Source: a virus. From it: a stretch of DNA of 64,000 nucleotides. This document shows positions 28,496-45,586 of the stretch, in pieces. Every line of letters begins with the position of its first letter. Position 1 is the first letter of the stretch. A program made the translations under genes and the position numbers. The notes beneath the pieces are model-generated. The model was not told the DNA's origin. It saw nothing but the letters and a program-made list of their open reading frames with translations, and searched no databases. The stretch covers positions 1 through 64,000 of the IMG/VR virus record IMGVR_UViG_3300040801_001530, one strand, 5' to 3'.

Positions 28496-29167
28496 ATGCC
28501 TTTATCGTATAACGCTAACACCGGCTCTTATAGCCAGCGTTGGCATTCAGACCATGATAGGAATGTAATAGAGCGTGATGTTGTTAGGAGCGCTATACAT
28601 TTAGTTGATAGCGTAGCTTGTGACCCGGAGCTTAGCTTTGCTAATACCGACGGTATGACTTATACAGTAGACAGGCCGGTCGAGCGTGAAGCCTTGCGCG
28701 GTTTGCGGCGTGGTAATAAGTCGCCTGAAGACTTGCACGGCAACGTATACAGGCCATTTACCGTACTGTTTGCGGAGAGGGCGTTAGAGTGTGCGCTAGT
28801 ACTAGCCGATAATAGCGGTAACGATAGCTATAGCCTTACTTATGTACCACCGCTTGATGAGTACGGCGTGGGCTACCAGCTAACTAGCCGTGTACCTTAC
28901 CGCGATCCTGCTTATATCGCTGCCGCTATGCTGTATGATGGCTATGATTTTGCGCCTAGTGTGGTTGCCGAGGCACAGCGCGTCGTCAACCTAGCCAAGG
29001 GCAAAAAACGGTTTAAAACACACCATACAAGCCTATTAGTTAGCATACTCTCTAACAACTCCGGTAGTATTATTGATATAGCGCGGTCTAATGGCATTGA
29101 GATAGATCGTATTAATGAGTGGCTAGCGACGTTTAGTACTATTCGTGGCATACTATCCGGTAAATAG
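28496..29167 (+). CDS. Hypothetical protein with YNxxTxSY start
   Basis: 223 residues, unrecognised. Its first residues (LSYNANTGSYSQRWHSD) recall the N-terminal tags of the 16780 and 58962 proteins. The C-terminal part is helical (SILSNNSGSIIDIARSNGIEIDRINEW). A GGGGAG site precedes the ATG. It is 12 bp from the FkbM gene. Confidence 0.6.
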   Translation: MPLSYNANTGSYSQRWHSDHDRNVIERDVVRSAIHLVDSVACDPELSFANTDGMTYTVDRPVEREALRGLRRGNKSPEDLHGNVYRPFTVLFAERALECALVLADNSGNDSYSLTYVPPLDEYGVGYQLTSRVPYRDPAYIAAAMLYDGYDFAPSVVAEAQRVVNLAKGKKRFKTHHTSLLVSILSNNSGSIIDIARSNGIEIDRINEWLATFSTIRGILSGK

Positions 29168-29179
29168 AGAGGCAGTTTA

Positions 29180-30172
29180 ATGACTGTTGCTAAGTACGAC
29201 ACTAAGGATATTGTAGAGTGGGTTACTATCCCCGCCAATGCCGCATTAGGTTATGATAGTTTTGAGTTAGCGATTAATAAGGCGGCGCGTGACTGCGCTA
29301 CGGCGTCGTTACGTGCGGGGCAACCCATCCCCGATGCCCCTATTAAGGTGGCTCTTGAATTGCTTAAGCCGGGTGATGTTGCCCTAGACGTGGGCGCTTT
29401 TGTGGGCGCTTTTGCGCTGCGCGCCGCCGCTAAGGGGTGCGGGGTAATCGCGTTTGAACCGGATCCACTTAATGCTATGTTGTTACGTACTAGTATCGAG
29501 CGTAACGGCTGGGAAGAGTATGTTAGCGTGATAGAGGCCGCAGCCGATTATGTCGAAGGCCGGTCTATAATGTATGATACAGGCCCGTTTGGATATATTG
29601 GCCCAACAACCGACACTAGCGGCGTGCGTACTGTTGCGATAGATGATATATTAACGCGGTTTACAACATACCGTACAAACAACCGTGCAACGCCAAAAGT
29701 TATCAAGATTGATGTTGAAGGCGGCGAGTTAAATGTATTACGTGGTATGAGTAACCTGCTAAATAGCCCATTAGCGCCGGTTGTCATATGGGAAGGTAAT
29801 ACCTTGACCTTGCGCCGTGCTGAGATAAATCCTATGGTTGTTAAGAGACATTTGTCAGAATTTGGTTATACTAGTGATATGCTATACGGTGACAAGCGGG
29901 TGTTTGTAGAGGTGACGGAGCCGCAAATTGTGGTTAATGTGGATTATGTCAGTCTCCGCTATTGGCATGTGCTCTTATATTCTGATGTGTTGCCAGAACG
30001 CAAGCACGGTTACACGCGGGAGCAAATGATTGAGCGTGTAGCTAAAGATATACAGGCCGCCGGGGAGGGTGCATTACGGATGCTATACATCGCACGCAAT
30101 GATATGCCCCCCTGGCTATTGTTTGCACCTGAAGTGGTTGATGCGTTTGATAAACGTAAGGGGGATATATAA
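29180..30172 (+). CDS. FkbM-family methyltransferase
   Basis: 330 residues. SAM-binding motif I is VALDVGAFVGAFALRAAAKG at about 70-89, followed by the acidic GVIAFEPDP loop and the FkbM signature KVIKIDVEGGELNVLRGM near 175-192. FkbM enzymes methylate hydroxyl groups of sugars or polyketides. With glycosyltransferases elsewhere in the genome, a glycan substrate is plausible. The C-terminal 80 residues are extra compared with minimal members. It is flanked by a nuclease-like gene three bases downstream. Confidence 0.85.
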   Translation: MTVAKYDTKDIVEWVTIPANAALGYDSFELAINKAARDCATASLRAGQPIPDAPIKVALELLKPGDVALDVGAFVGAFALRAAAKGCGVIAFEPDPLNAMLLRTSIERNGWEEYVSVIEAAADYVEGRSIMYDTGPFGYIGPTTDTSGVRTVAIDDILTRFTTYRTNNRATPKVIKIDVEGGELNVLRGMSNLLNSPLAPVVIWEGNTLTLRRAEINPMVVKRHLSEFGYTSDMLYGDKRVFVEVTEPQIVVNVDYVSLRYWHVLLYSDVLPERKHGYTREQMIERVAKDIQAAGEGALRMLYIARNDMPPWLLFAPEVVDAFDKRKGDI

Positions 30173-38387: not shown

Positions 38388-39245
38388 ATGTCTAATTTAC
38401 CGTTGCCTATGCCGGAGAATCCTGTTTATCGTGTTGTGTCATTCGGCGGCGGCGTGCAATCACACACAATAATGGCGCTAGATGTACTAGAAGGGCGTCC
38501 TAGCCCCTATGCCGCCTATGTTATGGCTGATGTGGGGCACGATAGTGAACACCCCGACACGGTTGAATATATTGAGCGATATACAAAACCATTTGCGGCT
38601 AAGCATGGCATTAACCTTGTATTTGCTCAAAAAACAACACGGGGGATCGGCCCGGAGACGTTGCTAAGTTTTGCGTACCGCACCGAGCGTAGCATTCCGT
38701 TGCCTATGTATCTTATGCCAAACGGCGCGCCGGGTAACCGCACTTGCACAACCGACTTTAAGGTAAAAGTGGTGGATAAGTGGATCAAAACCACGTTAGG
38801 TAATGTGCAAGCTATTGTGGCGTTGGGCTTTACTGTAGATGAGTTGCGGCGGGCGCGTGTAATCCGATGGGATAACAAATACGGTAAGCGCAATTTAGGA
38901 TTTTGGAAGCGCTTTGAATATCCGCTAATCGACCGGCGGCTATCCCGCTCGCATTGCGCTACAGTTTTGGCTAAGGTGGGGTTACCATTGCCACCCCGAT
39001 CGGCCTGTTGGTTTTGCCCCTTCCAAAAAAGAGAACAATGGCAAGCGTTGCGGGATACACACCCCGATTTGTGGCAGGCCGCTATTAAGTTAGAGCGGGC
39101 TATGAATGATAAGCGGCGGATGCTAGGACGGGATGATATGTATTTACACCGAGATTTAAAGCCACTCGATGCAATCCCGCCTTTGCAAGCTACTCTATTT
39201 GATGACGAAGACATCGGGTGTAATGATAGCTCATGCTTTACATAG
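38388..39245 (+). CDS. PAPS-reductase-like ATP-pyrophosphatase family protein
   Basis: 285 residues. N-terminal P-loop VVSFGGGVQSHTIMAL (about 16-31) replaces the SGGKDS form, and the family's Cys pairs are CTTDFK (about 125) and CWFCPF (about 207-212), a likely Fe-S or metal site. The fold activates sulfate or thiol groups with ATP: PAPS reductase, DndC-type phosphorothioation and related RNA thiolation. Phages often carry such genes with unknown targets. A link to the sulfotransferase at 54213 is tempting but unproven. It has its own promoter and lies between small orphan cassettes. Confidence 0.82.
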   Translation: MSNLPLPMPENPVYRVVSFGGGVQSHTIMALDVLEGRPSPYAAYVMADVGHDSEHPDTVEYIERYTKPFAAKHGINLVFAQKTTRGIGPETLLSFAYRTERSIPLPMYLMPNGAPGNRTCTTDFKVKVVDKWIKTTLGNVQAIVALGFTVDELRRARVIRWDNKYGKRNLGFWKRFEYPLIDRRLSRSHCATVLAKVGLPLPPRSACWFCPFQKREQWQALRDTHPDLWQAAIKLERAMNDKRRMLGRDDMYLHRDLKPLDAIPPLQATLFDDEDIGCNDSSCFT

Positions 39246-40200: not shown

Positions 40201-40208
40201 GCCCCTTA

Positions 40209-40276
40209 AAGCATTGTCGGGATTGAACCGACCACCTCCGCATAGAGCGGCGTAATCACCAGATTACTTAATGCCT
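40209..40276 (-). tRNA. tRNA-like gene with very short anticodon arm
   Basis: Acceptor AGGCATT/AATGCTT (one G-T), D-arm GTAA/TTAC, perfect T-arm GTCGG-TTCAATC-CCGAC. The anticodon arm is CCGC-TCTAT-GCGG, four pairs and five loop bases. Forcing a seven-base loop would give CTA, an amber-reading anticodon, with a mispaired stem. Confidence 0.55.
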
Positions 40277-40328
40277 TCGTAAAGCATCGACACGCCCCAT
40301 ATGTGAGGCTATGTTTATATACAAAACA

Positions 40329-40357
40329 ACTATATCACATCCCGGCGGACTTGTCAA
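40329..40357 (-). promoter_or_regulatory. tRNA array promoter inside the iscB 3' end
   Basis: Minus strand TTGACA (40352-40357), 17-bp spacer, TATAGT (40329-40334): a near-consensus promoter overlapping the last codons of iscB and facing the tRNAs. Confidence 0.82.
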
Positions 40358-41690
40358 GGGCTGTGTCATGTTTAACAACGATATGCCCTATAGAGCGCTG
40401 TAGAACGGTGCAAGCGCTAGGGGATGCGCTGTGTCGTTGCCCGCGTCTATCTGTGATGCTAAACCCGCCCTTAGCACGCCAACTGGTAACAAACCCCGTG
40501 AATGTGGTACCATCGCGCTTAATCACCCTGACAAAATCACGTGCTCTAATTCCATCTCTCGTTTTTGCGCGGGCCTTCGGCTTTGCGCGGGGGAACCCGA
40601 ATTTATCCGGTTTGCACGCTTGCCTGCTGCCACGGGCTTTGGCAATAATCAACTTAGGCACGATAGAGCGCGGTATAATAATCTTTGAGCCTATCGCCCC
40701 CACGCAGGCCGCGTCTATCCAATGGTCTTTAGGATACCCGGCTAAGGTACGATTATATTTAGTAAGCGCCCCCGTGCCCAACTCTACGATTAGCCCCGAT
40801 GCCTCTAGCCGTTCCCGTAACACAATGCGTGTAGCATTTACAGCCGCCATATCCCGCATAGATAGCCCCCGCTGTGCTTTTGCTTGCAGCGCGGGGTGTC
40901 CAAACTCGTCTGCGGTATTATTACCCTTGCGCTGGTTGCATGGCCCGCAGGCTATTGCTAGATTATCAATCCGATTAGAGCCACCGCGCGATTTAGGGAC
41001 AATATGCTCAATCTGTAGGGGTACGTTTGCGGCACCGCAATAGGCGCACTTCCTACCCCACTTCTCTAACAGATATTCCCTAACCTCGTACCCCGCTAGT
41101 GTGCCCTGCTGGTATTCCACACCACTAATTGCAGGGTTGGCCATTAGTTGAGTATCAAACTTAACATCCTCTAGCGCGTTGTGCTCATAGCCTGTATAAC
41201 GCCATACACGCTCCGCCCAAACCATAGTATTATCCAAGCGGCTACGCATAGAGGGCGCAAGCCAACCCTTCGGCACCATGCGACGGTAGGTGATTTTACC
41301 TGCCCGCTTATTTGCGCCTAGCACCTCACCAGCACGGGGCCGCCACGGGCGATAGCGCAGGTTAGCTGTACGGCGGCGGCGACGGTATCCGCTACGATCT
41401 TTTAAATGCTTGACCACTACACTAGCCCGGTGTTCGAGATTTGCGCCCCATACGACAGTAGGCCCGCGCTTAAAATCAGCTACCAACGCTATACCCGTTG
41501 TTTTGCTGCCGGGATCTATTTTGTATTGCATGGCTTGCTTATGGCCGCCTTCGTGGTCTTTTAATATGATGGTAAATGGCGTGTGGCGATAAACCGCCGC
41601 CTTACCATCACGCAACAGCTTACGCGCCCGTGCCGGTTGACATGGCATTAAGGGCTGCTTATGTTTGTCTAGTACAAAAACACGGCTCAT
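40335..41690 (-). CDS. iscB: IscB RNA-guided HNH/RuvC nuclease
   Basis: 451 residues with every IscB part in order: PLMP domain (PLMP at 13-16), RuvC-I DPGSKTTGIAL (D59), Arg-rich bridge helix (about 98-120), RuvC-II region (EDVKFD, probably E174), HNH with CAYCG (215-219), EHIVPKSRGG (H229) and CGPCNQRKG, RuvC-III KDHWIDAAC (H323, D326), and a basic C-terminal target-recognition domain. No catalytic residue is missing. IscB is the Cas9 ancestor: it uses a structured RNA with a 5' guide to cut both DNA strands beside a short flanking motif. The RNA and a mini-CRISPR lie directly upstream. No TnpA transposase is present, so it is not an active IS200/605 unit here. Confidence 0.95.
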   Translation of the reverse strand: MSRVFVLDKHKQPLMPCQPARARKLLRDGKAAVYRHTPFTIILKDHEGGHKQAMQYKIDPGSKTTGIALVADFKRGPTVVWGANLEHRASVVVKHLKDRSGYRRRRRTANLRYRPWRPRAGEVLGANKRAGKITYRRMVPKGWLAPSMRSRLDNTMVWAERVWRYTGYEHNALEDVKFDTQLMANPAISGVEYQQGTLAGYEVREYLLEKWGRKCAYCGAANVPLQIEHIVPKSRGGSNRIDNLAIACGPCNQRKGNNTADEFGHPALQAKAQRGLSMRDMAAVNATRIVLRERLEASGLIVELGTGALTKYNRTLAGYPKDHWIDAACVGAIGSKIIIPRSIVPKLIIAKARGSRQACKPDKFGFPRAKPKARAKTRDGIRARDFVRVIKRDGTTFTGFVTSWRAKGGFSITDRRGQRHSASPSACTVLQRSIGHIVVKHDTALDKSAGM

Positions 41691-41719
41691 AGCCTACCCT
41701 TCTATGTGATTGGTGTATA

Positions 41720-41760
41720 TTACAAAAATGCCGTAGAGTTGCGTAACCCCACGGCATTTT
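41720..41760 (-). terminator. Hairpin ending the guide RNA, before iscB
   Basis: Minus strand AAAATGCCGT pairs with ACGGCATTTT (10 bp) and is followed by T-rich DNA. It separates the non-coding RNA from the iscB start 30 bp on. The loop side GCCGTGGGGTTACGCAAC resembles the CRISPR repeat. Confidence 0.7.
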
Positions 41761-42070
41761 GTGCCACTGTAAAATGGCCACTCCTAGCCGCTTACGCGGC
41801 ATCGGGTAAAGGTCTCCTTGGCAATGTTATGCACGGTTTATCGCTAACAGCACTTCGCTAAGCGGGTTACGATGTTTAACTGTTGAGCCGTATTTTACCC
41901 AGACTGGAGAAGCATCCGGGGATACCTATATATTCGCACATAACGTAGGCTATTTAGCGTTTATGGCGCTATTCGCCTTAGCCGGGATGCAGTGGTATTG
42001 TAAACGTTTTGGGGTTACAATACCCCCACGGCGTGGGGCCGCTCTGCAACAAACGCGATACCATAAATGA
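41720..42070 (-). ncRNA. Predicted omega RNA with guide, repeat and anti-repeat
   Basis: Read on the minus strand: 20-nt spacer 1 (42051-42070), the final 37-nt repeat (42014-42050), a nine-base linker, then an anti-repeat (41988-42003) and a structured scaffold to the hairpin at 41720. Repeat end GGTATTGTAA pairs perfectly with TTACAATACC, and repeat start TGCAG with CTGCA; the repeat's own CCCCACG/CGTGGGG stem stays as a side arm. Further stems: GCATCC/GGATGC, GGCTA/TAGCC, GGCG/CGCC, GCCGC-GTAA-GCGGC. Position upstream of iscB and the 5' guide are those of omega RNAs. Confidence 0.78.
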
Positions 42071-42184
42071 GTTACAATACCCCCACGGCGTGGGGCCGCT
42101 CTGCAACTTTAGCAAATCGAGCTTTGCCCTTATCGTTTGAGGATTACAATACCCCCCCCACACGGCGTAGGGCCACGCTAGAAC
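42014..42184 (-). CRISPR. Mini-CRISPR associated with iscB
   Basis: Two identical 37-bp repeats (42014-42050 and 42071-42107), which start GTTACAATACCCCC and end GCTCTGCAAC as read on the plus strand, each with a CCCCACG-G-CGTGGGG stem. A third diverged copy lies at 42142-42184. Spacers are 20 bp (42051-42070) and about 34 bp (42108-42141). No cas1, cas2 or other cas gene is visible. The unequal spacers and the degenerate promoter-side repeat are unusual. Confidence 0.85.
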
Positions 42185-42190
42185 ACACTA

Positions 42191-42219
42191 AGTGTATCAT
42201 GCATCACGTCTCTTGTCAA
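42191..42219 (-). promoter_or_regulatory. Promoter of the mini-CRISPR / omega RNA / iscB unit
   Basis: Minus strand TTGACA (42214-42219), 17-bp spacer, TACACT (42191-42196). A start site would fall at about 42184, the outer edge of the degenerate repeat. Confidence 0.8.
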
Positions 42220-44773: not shown

Positions 44774-45586
44774 ATGTGTGAGACAACTAAGGTATGCGCA
44801 AAGTGCGGTAAAGAGAAGCCGTTAAGTGAATTTTATCGGCAGGCAGCCTGTAGTGATGGCTGTGGGTCTTATTGTAAGGAATGTACCCGCGAATACGAGC
44901 GGGAACGTTACGCCAATGACCCGGAATACCAGGAACGCAAGCGGGAACGCAATCGAGAATACAACCGGGTGCGCTATGCCAATGACCCGGAATACCAGGA
45001 ACGCAAGCGGGAACGTAATCGGGAACGCCGGGCCAATGACCCGGAATACCGGGAACGCGAGCGGGAACGCTATGCCAATGACCCAGAATACCGGGAACGC
45101 AAGCGGGAACGCGAGCGGGTGCGCTATGCCAATGACCCGGAATACCGGGAACGTAAGCGGGAATACAAGCGGGAACGCTGGGCCAATGACCCGGAATACC
45201 GGGAACGTCACCGGGAATACAGGCGGGCACGTCGCGCTAAAAACCACGGCCTACCGTTTGCGTGGGGCACCGAAGACAGCCAGCGGGCACTAGACTATTG
45301 GCATGGGCGCTGCGCTTATTGTGGGGAGCCGTTAGCTGATTTATTTGGCGATGTCGTGCCACACATGGATCACTATATTCCCATCTCATACGCGGGCGAA
45401 GACAACCCCGGCACGGTACCGGAGAACATGTTACCGACGTGCTCTGAATGTAACTTAAGTAAAAACGCCGCTATGCCCGAAGAGTGGGTAGAACGCACAT
45501 TCGGTAAGCGCAAGGCCAAAGGGATTATTAAGCGCATACTAGAATACTTTGAGTGGGTAGAGGATACCATGCTAGATGCGGATTAG
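44774..45586 (+). CDS. HNH endonuclease with expanded ANDPEY repeat arm
   Basis: 270 residues. N-terminal zinc ribbon CAKCGKEKPLSEFY...CKECTREYER (about 8-45). Then six copies of a repeat with core ANDPEY followed by charged RER/KRE runs (about 45-155), a likely long helix. C-terminal HNH core: CAYCGEPL, HMDHYIPIS and CSECNLSKN (about 185-240). Repeat number may vary by slippage. Similar ribbon-coil-HNH proteins act as homing or packaging nucleases. The repetitive DNA also leaves false long frames open on both strands. Confidence 0.85.
   Translation: MCETTKVCAKCGKEKPLSEFYRQAACSDGCGSYCKECTREYERERYANDPEYQERKRERNREYNRVRYANDPEYQERKRERNRERRANDPEYRERERERYANDPEYRERKRERERVRYANDPEYRERKREYKRERWANDPEYRERHREYRRARRAKNHGLPFAWGTEDSQRALDYWHGRCAYCGEPLADLFGDVVPHMDHYIPISYAGEDNPGTVPENMLPTCSECNLSKNAAMPEEWVERTFGKRKAKGIIKRILEYFEWVEDTMLDAD
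44911..45230 (+). repeat. Tandem repeat encoding ANDPEY units
   Basis: Six imperfect units of about 42-63 bp sharing GCCAATGACCCGGAATACC and charged-residue codons. Confidence 0.85.

Follow-up and report, generated by a model that had tools for sequence, protein, structure and literature searches.

The DNA stretch analysed here (the window) comprises 64,000 of the 64,579 bases of the IMG/VR virus record IMGVR_UViG_3300040801_001530. Terminase, portal with a head-morphogenesis end, capsid and tape-measure proteins are encoded in the window, and the record is therefore that of a tailed phage. On its minus strand lies a gene for the nuclease IscB, preceded by a small array of repeats and spacers whose last repeat runs into an omega RNA scaffold. 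We consider it probable that this locus is a phage-encoded, CRISPR-associated IscB, the array of which arose from its own omega RNA, and that it uses a one-piece guide for spacer 2, can change its targets and cuts the DNA of competitors.

The IscB protein and its upstream array

The IscB open reading frame (ORF; Table 1) matched the NCBI equivalog model NF040563 (IscB) with 377 bits (cut-off 175, E 5.3e-113). RRXRR and HNH domains were found in the protein, which has the PLMP start and a split RuvC domain with HNH inserted. Solved IscB structures were matched as well (TbaIscB, E 4e-38; OgeuIscB, E 8e-23). An alignment with ten relatives (46-52% identity) showed that D59, E174, H323 and D326 of RuvC and H229 and N252 of HNH are invariant; based on knowledge of the family, we take these to be the catalytic residues. 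A preliminary description of this DNA, made from the letters alone, had called the phage-borne IscB complete, with all RuvC and HNH residues in place, and our analysis agrees. About 16 residues at approximately positions 119-134, right before the GWLAPS motif, are missing from the ten relatives; REC-like inserts of other IscBs are reported to lie near the same linker region (PMC13180657). The structure prediction was too poor to be used (predicted local distance difference test, pLDDT, 46.5). The protein scored far below the Cas9 cut-offs, and neither Cas1 nor Cas2 was found in the record; the marks of a type II CRISPR-Cas system are thus lacking. By sequence, the protein is an IscB, i.e., an OMEGA nuclease, and RNA-guided cutting of double-stranded DNA is predicted for it.

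Upstream of the gene, direct repeats alternate with unique spacers, as is characteristic of CRISPR-associated IscBs. The two identical 37-bp repeats and the degenerate third one that had been described earlier were recovered, as was the 20-nucleotide (nt) spacer; the other spacer, given as about 34 nt, measured 35 nt. The repeat pair had a segment score of 37, whereas shuffled upstream regions reached 13.6 at most. In R0, the stem strand reads GTTCTAG and has lost its fit to the CTGCA of the anti-repeat. A sigma-70-like promoter match stops six bases ahead of this decayed repeat; therefore, the first repeat lies at the predicted transcript start (about 42185, taken as the first base of that repeat).

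Table 1. Positions of the array, the omega RNA and IscB in the window, and of the related loci in two other contigs
Feature	Contig	Positions	Strand	Description
IscB	window	40335..41690	-	451 amino acids, ORF without internal stop
Promoter-like site	window	42191..42219	-	TTGACA-17-TACACT, TG before the -10 element; 10/12 matches, consensus only
Degenerate repeat R0	window	42143..42184	-	31/37 (84%) identical to R1, 5-nt insertion
Spacer 1	window	42108..42142	-	35 nt, CCTCAAACGATAAGGGCAAAGCTCGATTTGCTAAA
Repeat R1	window	42071..42107	-	37 nt, GTTGCAGAGCGGCCCCACGCCGTGGGGGTATTGTAAC
Spacer 2	window	42051..42070	-	20 nt, TCATTTATGGTATCGCGTTT; guide of the predicted single-guide omega RNA
Repeat R2	window	42014..42050	-	37/37 identical to R1
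Loop between R2 and anti-repeat	window	42005..42013	-	nine bases
Anti-repeat	window	41985..42004	-	hairpin B 3' arm (TTTACAATACC) and basal-stem 3' strand (CTGCATC)
Omega RNA scaffold	window	41806..42044	-	full-length match to Rfam HEARO RF02033, model 1-211
Terminator-like inverted repeat	window	41725..41760	-	16 nt, AAAATGCCGTGGGGTT/AACTCTACGGCATTTT, ending TTTTTG; ahead of the IscB ORF
Array and IscB element	L035	2609-2795 and 1598-2614		three repeats of 37-41 nt with spacers, followed by an anti-repeat; ahead of IscB
Array upstream of IscB	L153	1380-1580		4-kb contig, viral status less sure; repeat sequence unrelated to the window's

The omega RNA and the proposed use of the array

The last repeat is followed, across the nine-base loop, by an anti-repeat fused to the scaffold. 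The pairings GGTATTGTAA/TTACAATACC and TGCAG/CTGCA, both named in the preliminary description, were present and were both formed in the predicted local fold. Of 5000 shuffles of the downstream DNA, 11 gave a perfect complement of at least the same ten-base length. A short hairpin A lies between the basal stem and the long hairpin B in this fold, and the loop of the latter is where the repeat ends. Thus, R2 contains the 5' strand of the omega basal stem, the whole of hairpin A (CCCCACGCCGTGGGG, assigned by homology, with two registers possible) and the 5' arm of hairpin B.

The covariance search that had been suggested for the presumed structured scaffold gave a match to HEARO, i.e., omega RNA, just upstream of IscB on the same strand. 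The score of 65 bits (E 6.9e-13) is under the gathering score of the family (83) but far from chance, and the match spans repeat, anti-repeat and scaffold. No second HEARO copy was found in the window. As to the terminator proposed earlier, the inverted repeat ending in a T-run is there, and it is not among the predictions of a terminator scan. The same description had joined its spacer 1, repeat, anti-repeat and scaffold into one single-guide RNA; our analysis supports one predicted RNA, in which spacer 2, the last one of the array, and its repeat continue into the anti-repeat and scaffold. What had been overlooked is that the repeat equals the omega RNA's guide-adaptor half and that the design is found in other viruses too.

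Viruses with mini-arrays of one or two spacers directed against related viruses are known (PMC11656645, PMC6858448), and the array might be of this type, serving a host CRISPR-Cas system as in archaeal viruses and lying next to IscB by chance. This is very unlikely, given that the last repeat is integral to the HEARO fold and base-pairs with the scaffold and that arrays occur at the same place in two other viruses. Instead, the probable source of the array is the omega RNA itself, because the repeat corresponds to the 5' guide-adaptor part of that RNA and the anti-repeat to the rest; the repeat would then not be derived from a host CRISPR locus.

In the reading that we favour, one promoter would give a transcript composed of the decayed repeat, spacer 1, repeat, spacer 2, repeat, anti-repeat and scaffold. 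Spacer 2, the last repeat and the scaffold would form a one-piece omega RNA; loaded with it, IscB would be guided to double-stranded DNA that matches the 20-nt spacer and would cut it. Since the repeat of spacer 1 is identical to the last one, spacer 1 may also be usable if R1 pairs with the anti-repeat instead, either in cis across a loop or, once cleaved off, as a separate piece. Duplication of the guide-adaptor half with a new guide would have uncoupled the guide from the DNA beside the insertion and so made the target changeable. Besides Cas1 and Cas2, the record lacks a Y1 transposase (PF01797) and hence the mark of an IS200/IS605 transposon; because none of the three is present, new spacers are expected to come via recombination or from the host. 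The phage would probably benefit in that rival mobile elements sharing its cell are cut.

Related arrays, spacer targets and alternative readings

From three viral scans, one genome scan and follow-up searches, we collected 133 distinct regions upstream of IscB, of which 83 are viral. Arrays upstream of IscB were found in 3 of the 83 distinct viral regions (the window, L035 and L153) versus 0 of the 50 others. L035 (IMGVR_UViG_3300009034_000237) is a phage contig of 20 kb that carries genes for a DNA polymerase, a recombinase and a terminase-like protein. Its repeats are unrelated in sequence to those of the window, and the anatomy and the break point are identical: the stem pairing is GTCTAA/TTAGAC, AGTTGAGCCTCAACT forms hairpin A, and CCATTAC/GTAATGG forms hairpin B, whose loop again holds the end of the repeat. 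The scaffold of L035 matched HEARO with 129 bits and that of L153 (IMGVR_UViG_3300025673_000206) with 85 bits. L153 has a continuous repeat:anti-repeat duplex, nearer to the CRISPR RNA (crRNA):trans-activating crRNA (tracrRNA) duplex of Cas9. The six spacers across the three arrays are mutually unrelated. Array-less relatives, several of those nearest to the window IscB among them, keep the two-hairpin adaptor with differing sequences.

Several other loci were noted. The L035 element comes directly after a terminase-like ORF, which matches the terminase profile partly and apparently stops after the ATPase part, as if interrupted. In L059, about 320-250 bases upstream of IscB, the omega guide adaptor is duplicated in tandem over 31 nt with no spacer between the copies; this duplication adjoins a second upstream scaffold copy and may be an early step to an array. 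Two cellular candidates were rejected as not omega-linked: a repeat in L136, and an array near IscB in L141 (order of G008), which is a type I-E-like CRISPR with 61-nt spacing.

A tree of 122 IscB sequences placed the window IscB in an all-viral group of seven (Shimodaira-Hasegawa-like approximate likelihood ratio test, SH-aLRT, 95), apart from L035 and L153. On this tree, three changes between presence and absence of an array are needed, at least two of which are forced by the starred branches, gains and losses being treated alike. Array-bearing IscBs thus occupy at least two separate places in the tree.

Spacer targets were sought by exact scans in IMG/VR and by sensitive searches (blastn) in phages and plasmids. 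The blastn search of the array gave chance-level matches only (E 2 or worse). In the exact scan, an 18-nt piece of spacer 2 matched one IMG/VR contig, L023 (19/20 overall), in a small gene within a tail-gene region. We do not claim this site as a target, as such a match is about chance level in tens of billions of bases (estimated size). In further exact scans of IMG/VR, a 19-nt piece of spacer 1 gave no match, L035 spacer 1 matched only itself, and a 25-nt piece of the window repeat was found in no other viral contig. Consequently, the earlier suggestion of a weapon against competing phages or host elements did not gain support: the spacers gave no convincing target in phages, plasmids or IMG/VR, and the record has no Cas1 or Cas2 for spacer acquisition. 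By analogy with viral mini-arrays (PMC11656645), a weapon function is plausible.

The same searches bear on the possibility that IscB acts as a homing nuclease, the guide of which matches the empty allele of related phages, so that IscB copies itself there. Terminase genes are a common location of homing elements, and the position of the L035 element behind the seemingly shortened terminase-like ORF would suit this, as does that of the window IscB, which adjoins tRNA genes within a cargo region. With an array, the guide no longer equals the flanking DNA, and no spacer matched its own flanks or another phage; we therefore consider homing improbable.

Several points weigh against the favoured reading. 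The spacer lengths of 35 and 20 nt are irregular, and the decayed repeat is at the promoter end, opposite to what ordinary CRISPR growth would give. No credible target of a spacer was found in phages, plasmids or IMG/VR, and a terminase search gave no close relatives of the phage in which spacer turnover could be followed. L059 shows the adaptor duplicated without a spacer, and hence duplication alone is no proof of function. Energy-based RNA tests were weak, with a minimum-free-energy z-score of -1.1. An unremarkable total folding energy can be expected for a pseudoknotted RNA; because it is not unusual here, we base the claim of an RNA on homology and the covariance match rather than on folding energy. 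The decayed first repeat, the irregular spacers, the lack of a spacer 1 target and the L059 duplication would all be compatible with an ordinary one-guide omega RNA and IscB, in which only spacer 2 is used and the extra repeats and spacer 1 are functionless debris of duplication. We regard this as unlikely: R1 and R2 are identical at all 37 positions and flanked by unrelated spacers, unlike a plain tandem duplication, similar arrays are present in L035 and L153 on other branches of the tree, and a promoter-like site is located at the first repeat.

Genomic surroundings and comparison with known systems

Other genes of the window were recorded as well. A tRNA-like gene with a CUA anticodon (40207-40277, minus strand) was labelled tRNA-Pyl by ARAGORN and had no Rfam match. 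At 28496-30172 (plus strand), two ORFs are parted by a single in-frame TAG and the frame is open for 334 codons, a possible case of amber read-through. A phosphoadenosine phosphosulfate (PAPS)-reductase-like gene (38388-39245, plus strand) shows a match to SspD, known from phosphorothioate DNA modification systems, as well. An HNH protein with tandem NDPEYRER-type repeats is encoded at 44774-45586 (plus strand).

The loci described here address the question of how the single guide of an OMEGA nuclease gave way to the multi-guide array of CRISPR-Cas9. They resemble living intermediates, with one RNA and a small IscB, yet with the guide module repeated, and may illustrate how CRISPR-Cas9 began. 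We propose tentatively, as possible rather than probable, that in phages the step from omega RNA to CRISPR array recurs, the guide-adaptor half being copied at a constant break point with neither Cas1 nor Cas2 involved. The outcome would be a nuclease that can be reprogrammed through exchangeable guides and serves in contests among mobile elements. The separate viral cases make the break-point rule testable, and the loci offer candidates for compact nucleases whose single-guide RNAs are natural.

Altae-Tran et al. 2021 (Science 374:57) reportedly described IscBs with an upstream CRISPR array, the last spacer and repeat of which are fused to the omega scaffold. The window shares this arrangement with such CRISPR-associated IscBs and differs from them in that the arrays are on phage genomes and in separate IscB branches, with no adaptation genes in the record. 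A large survey of HEARO called its nucleases not CRISPR-associated and found over 16% of HEARO fragments to be viral or prophage-derived (PMC9755519); those viral systems likewise combine IscB with a HEARO RNA on phage genomes, and the array is what the window adds. A structural study of IsrB proposed one half of the omega RNA as the forerunner of the CRISPR array (PMC9581776). The half proposed there is the part repeated in the window, whereas the two halves here remain one RNA and the protein remains a small IscB. Virus-borne CRISPR mini-arrays (PMC6858448, PMC11656645) similarly have one or two spacers and a possible role in inter-virus competition, but they rely on host Cas proteins and host-identical repeats, while the window has its own nuclease and scaffold. 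Cas9d, the type II-D Cas9 (PMC9755519), also combines a RuvC-HNH effector with an array and an anti-repeat; it is a larger protein with a REC domain, has a separate tracrRNA and is sometimes accompanied by adaptation genes. Viral IscBs and CRISPR-associated IscBs were thus known separately, and what is new is their combination, which recurs in viruses without an adaptation module.
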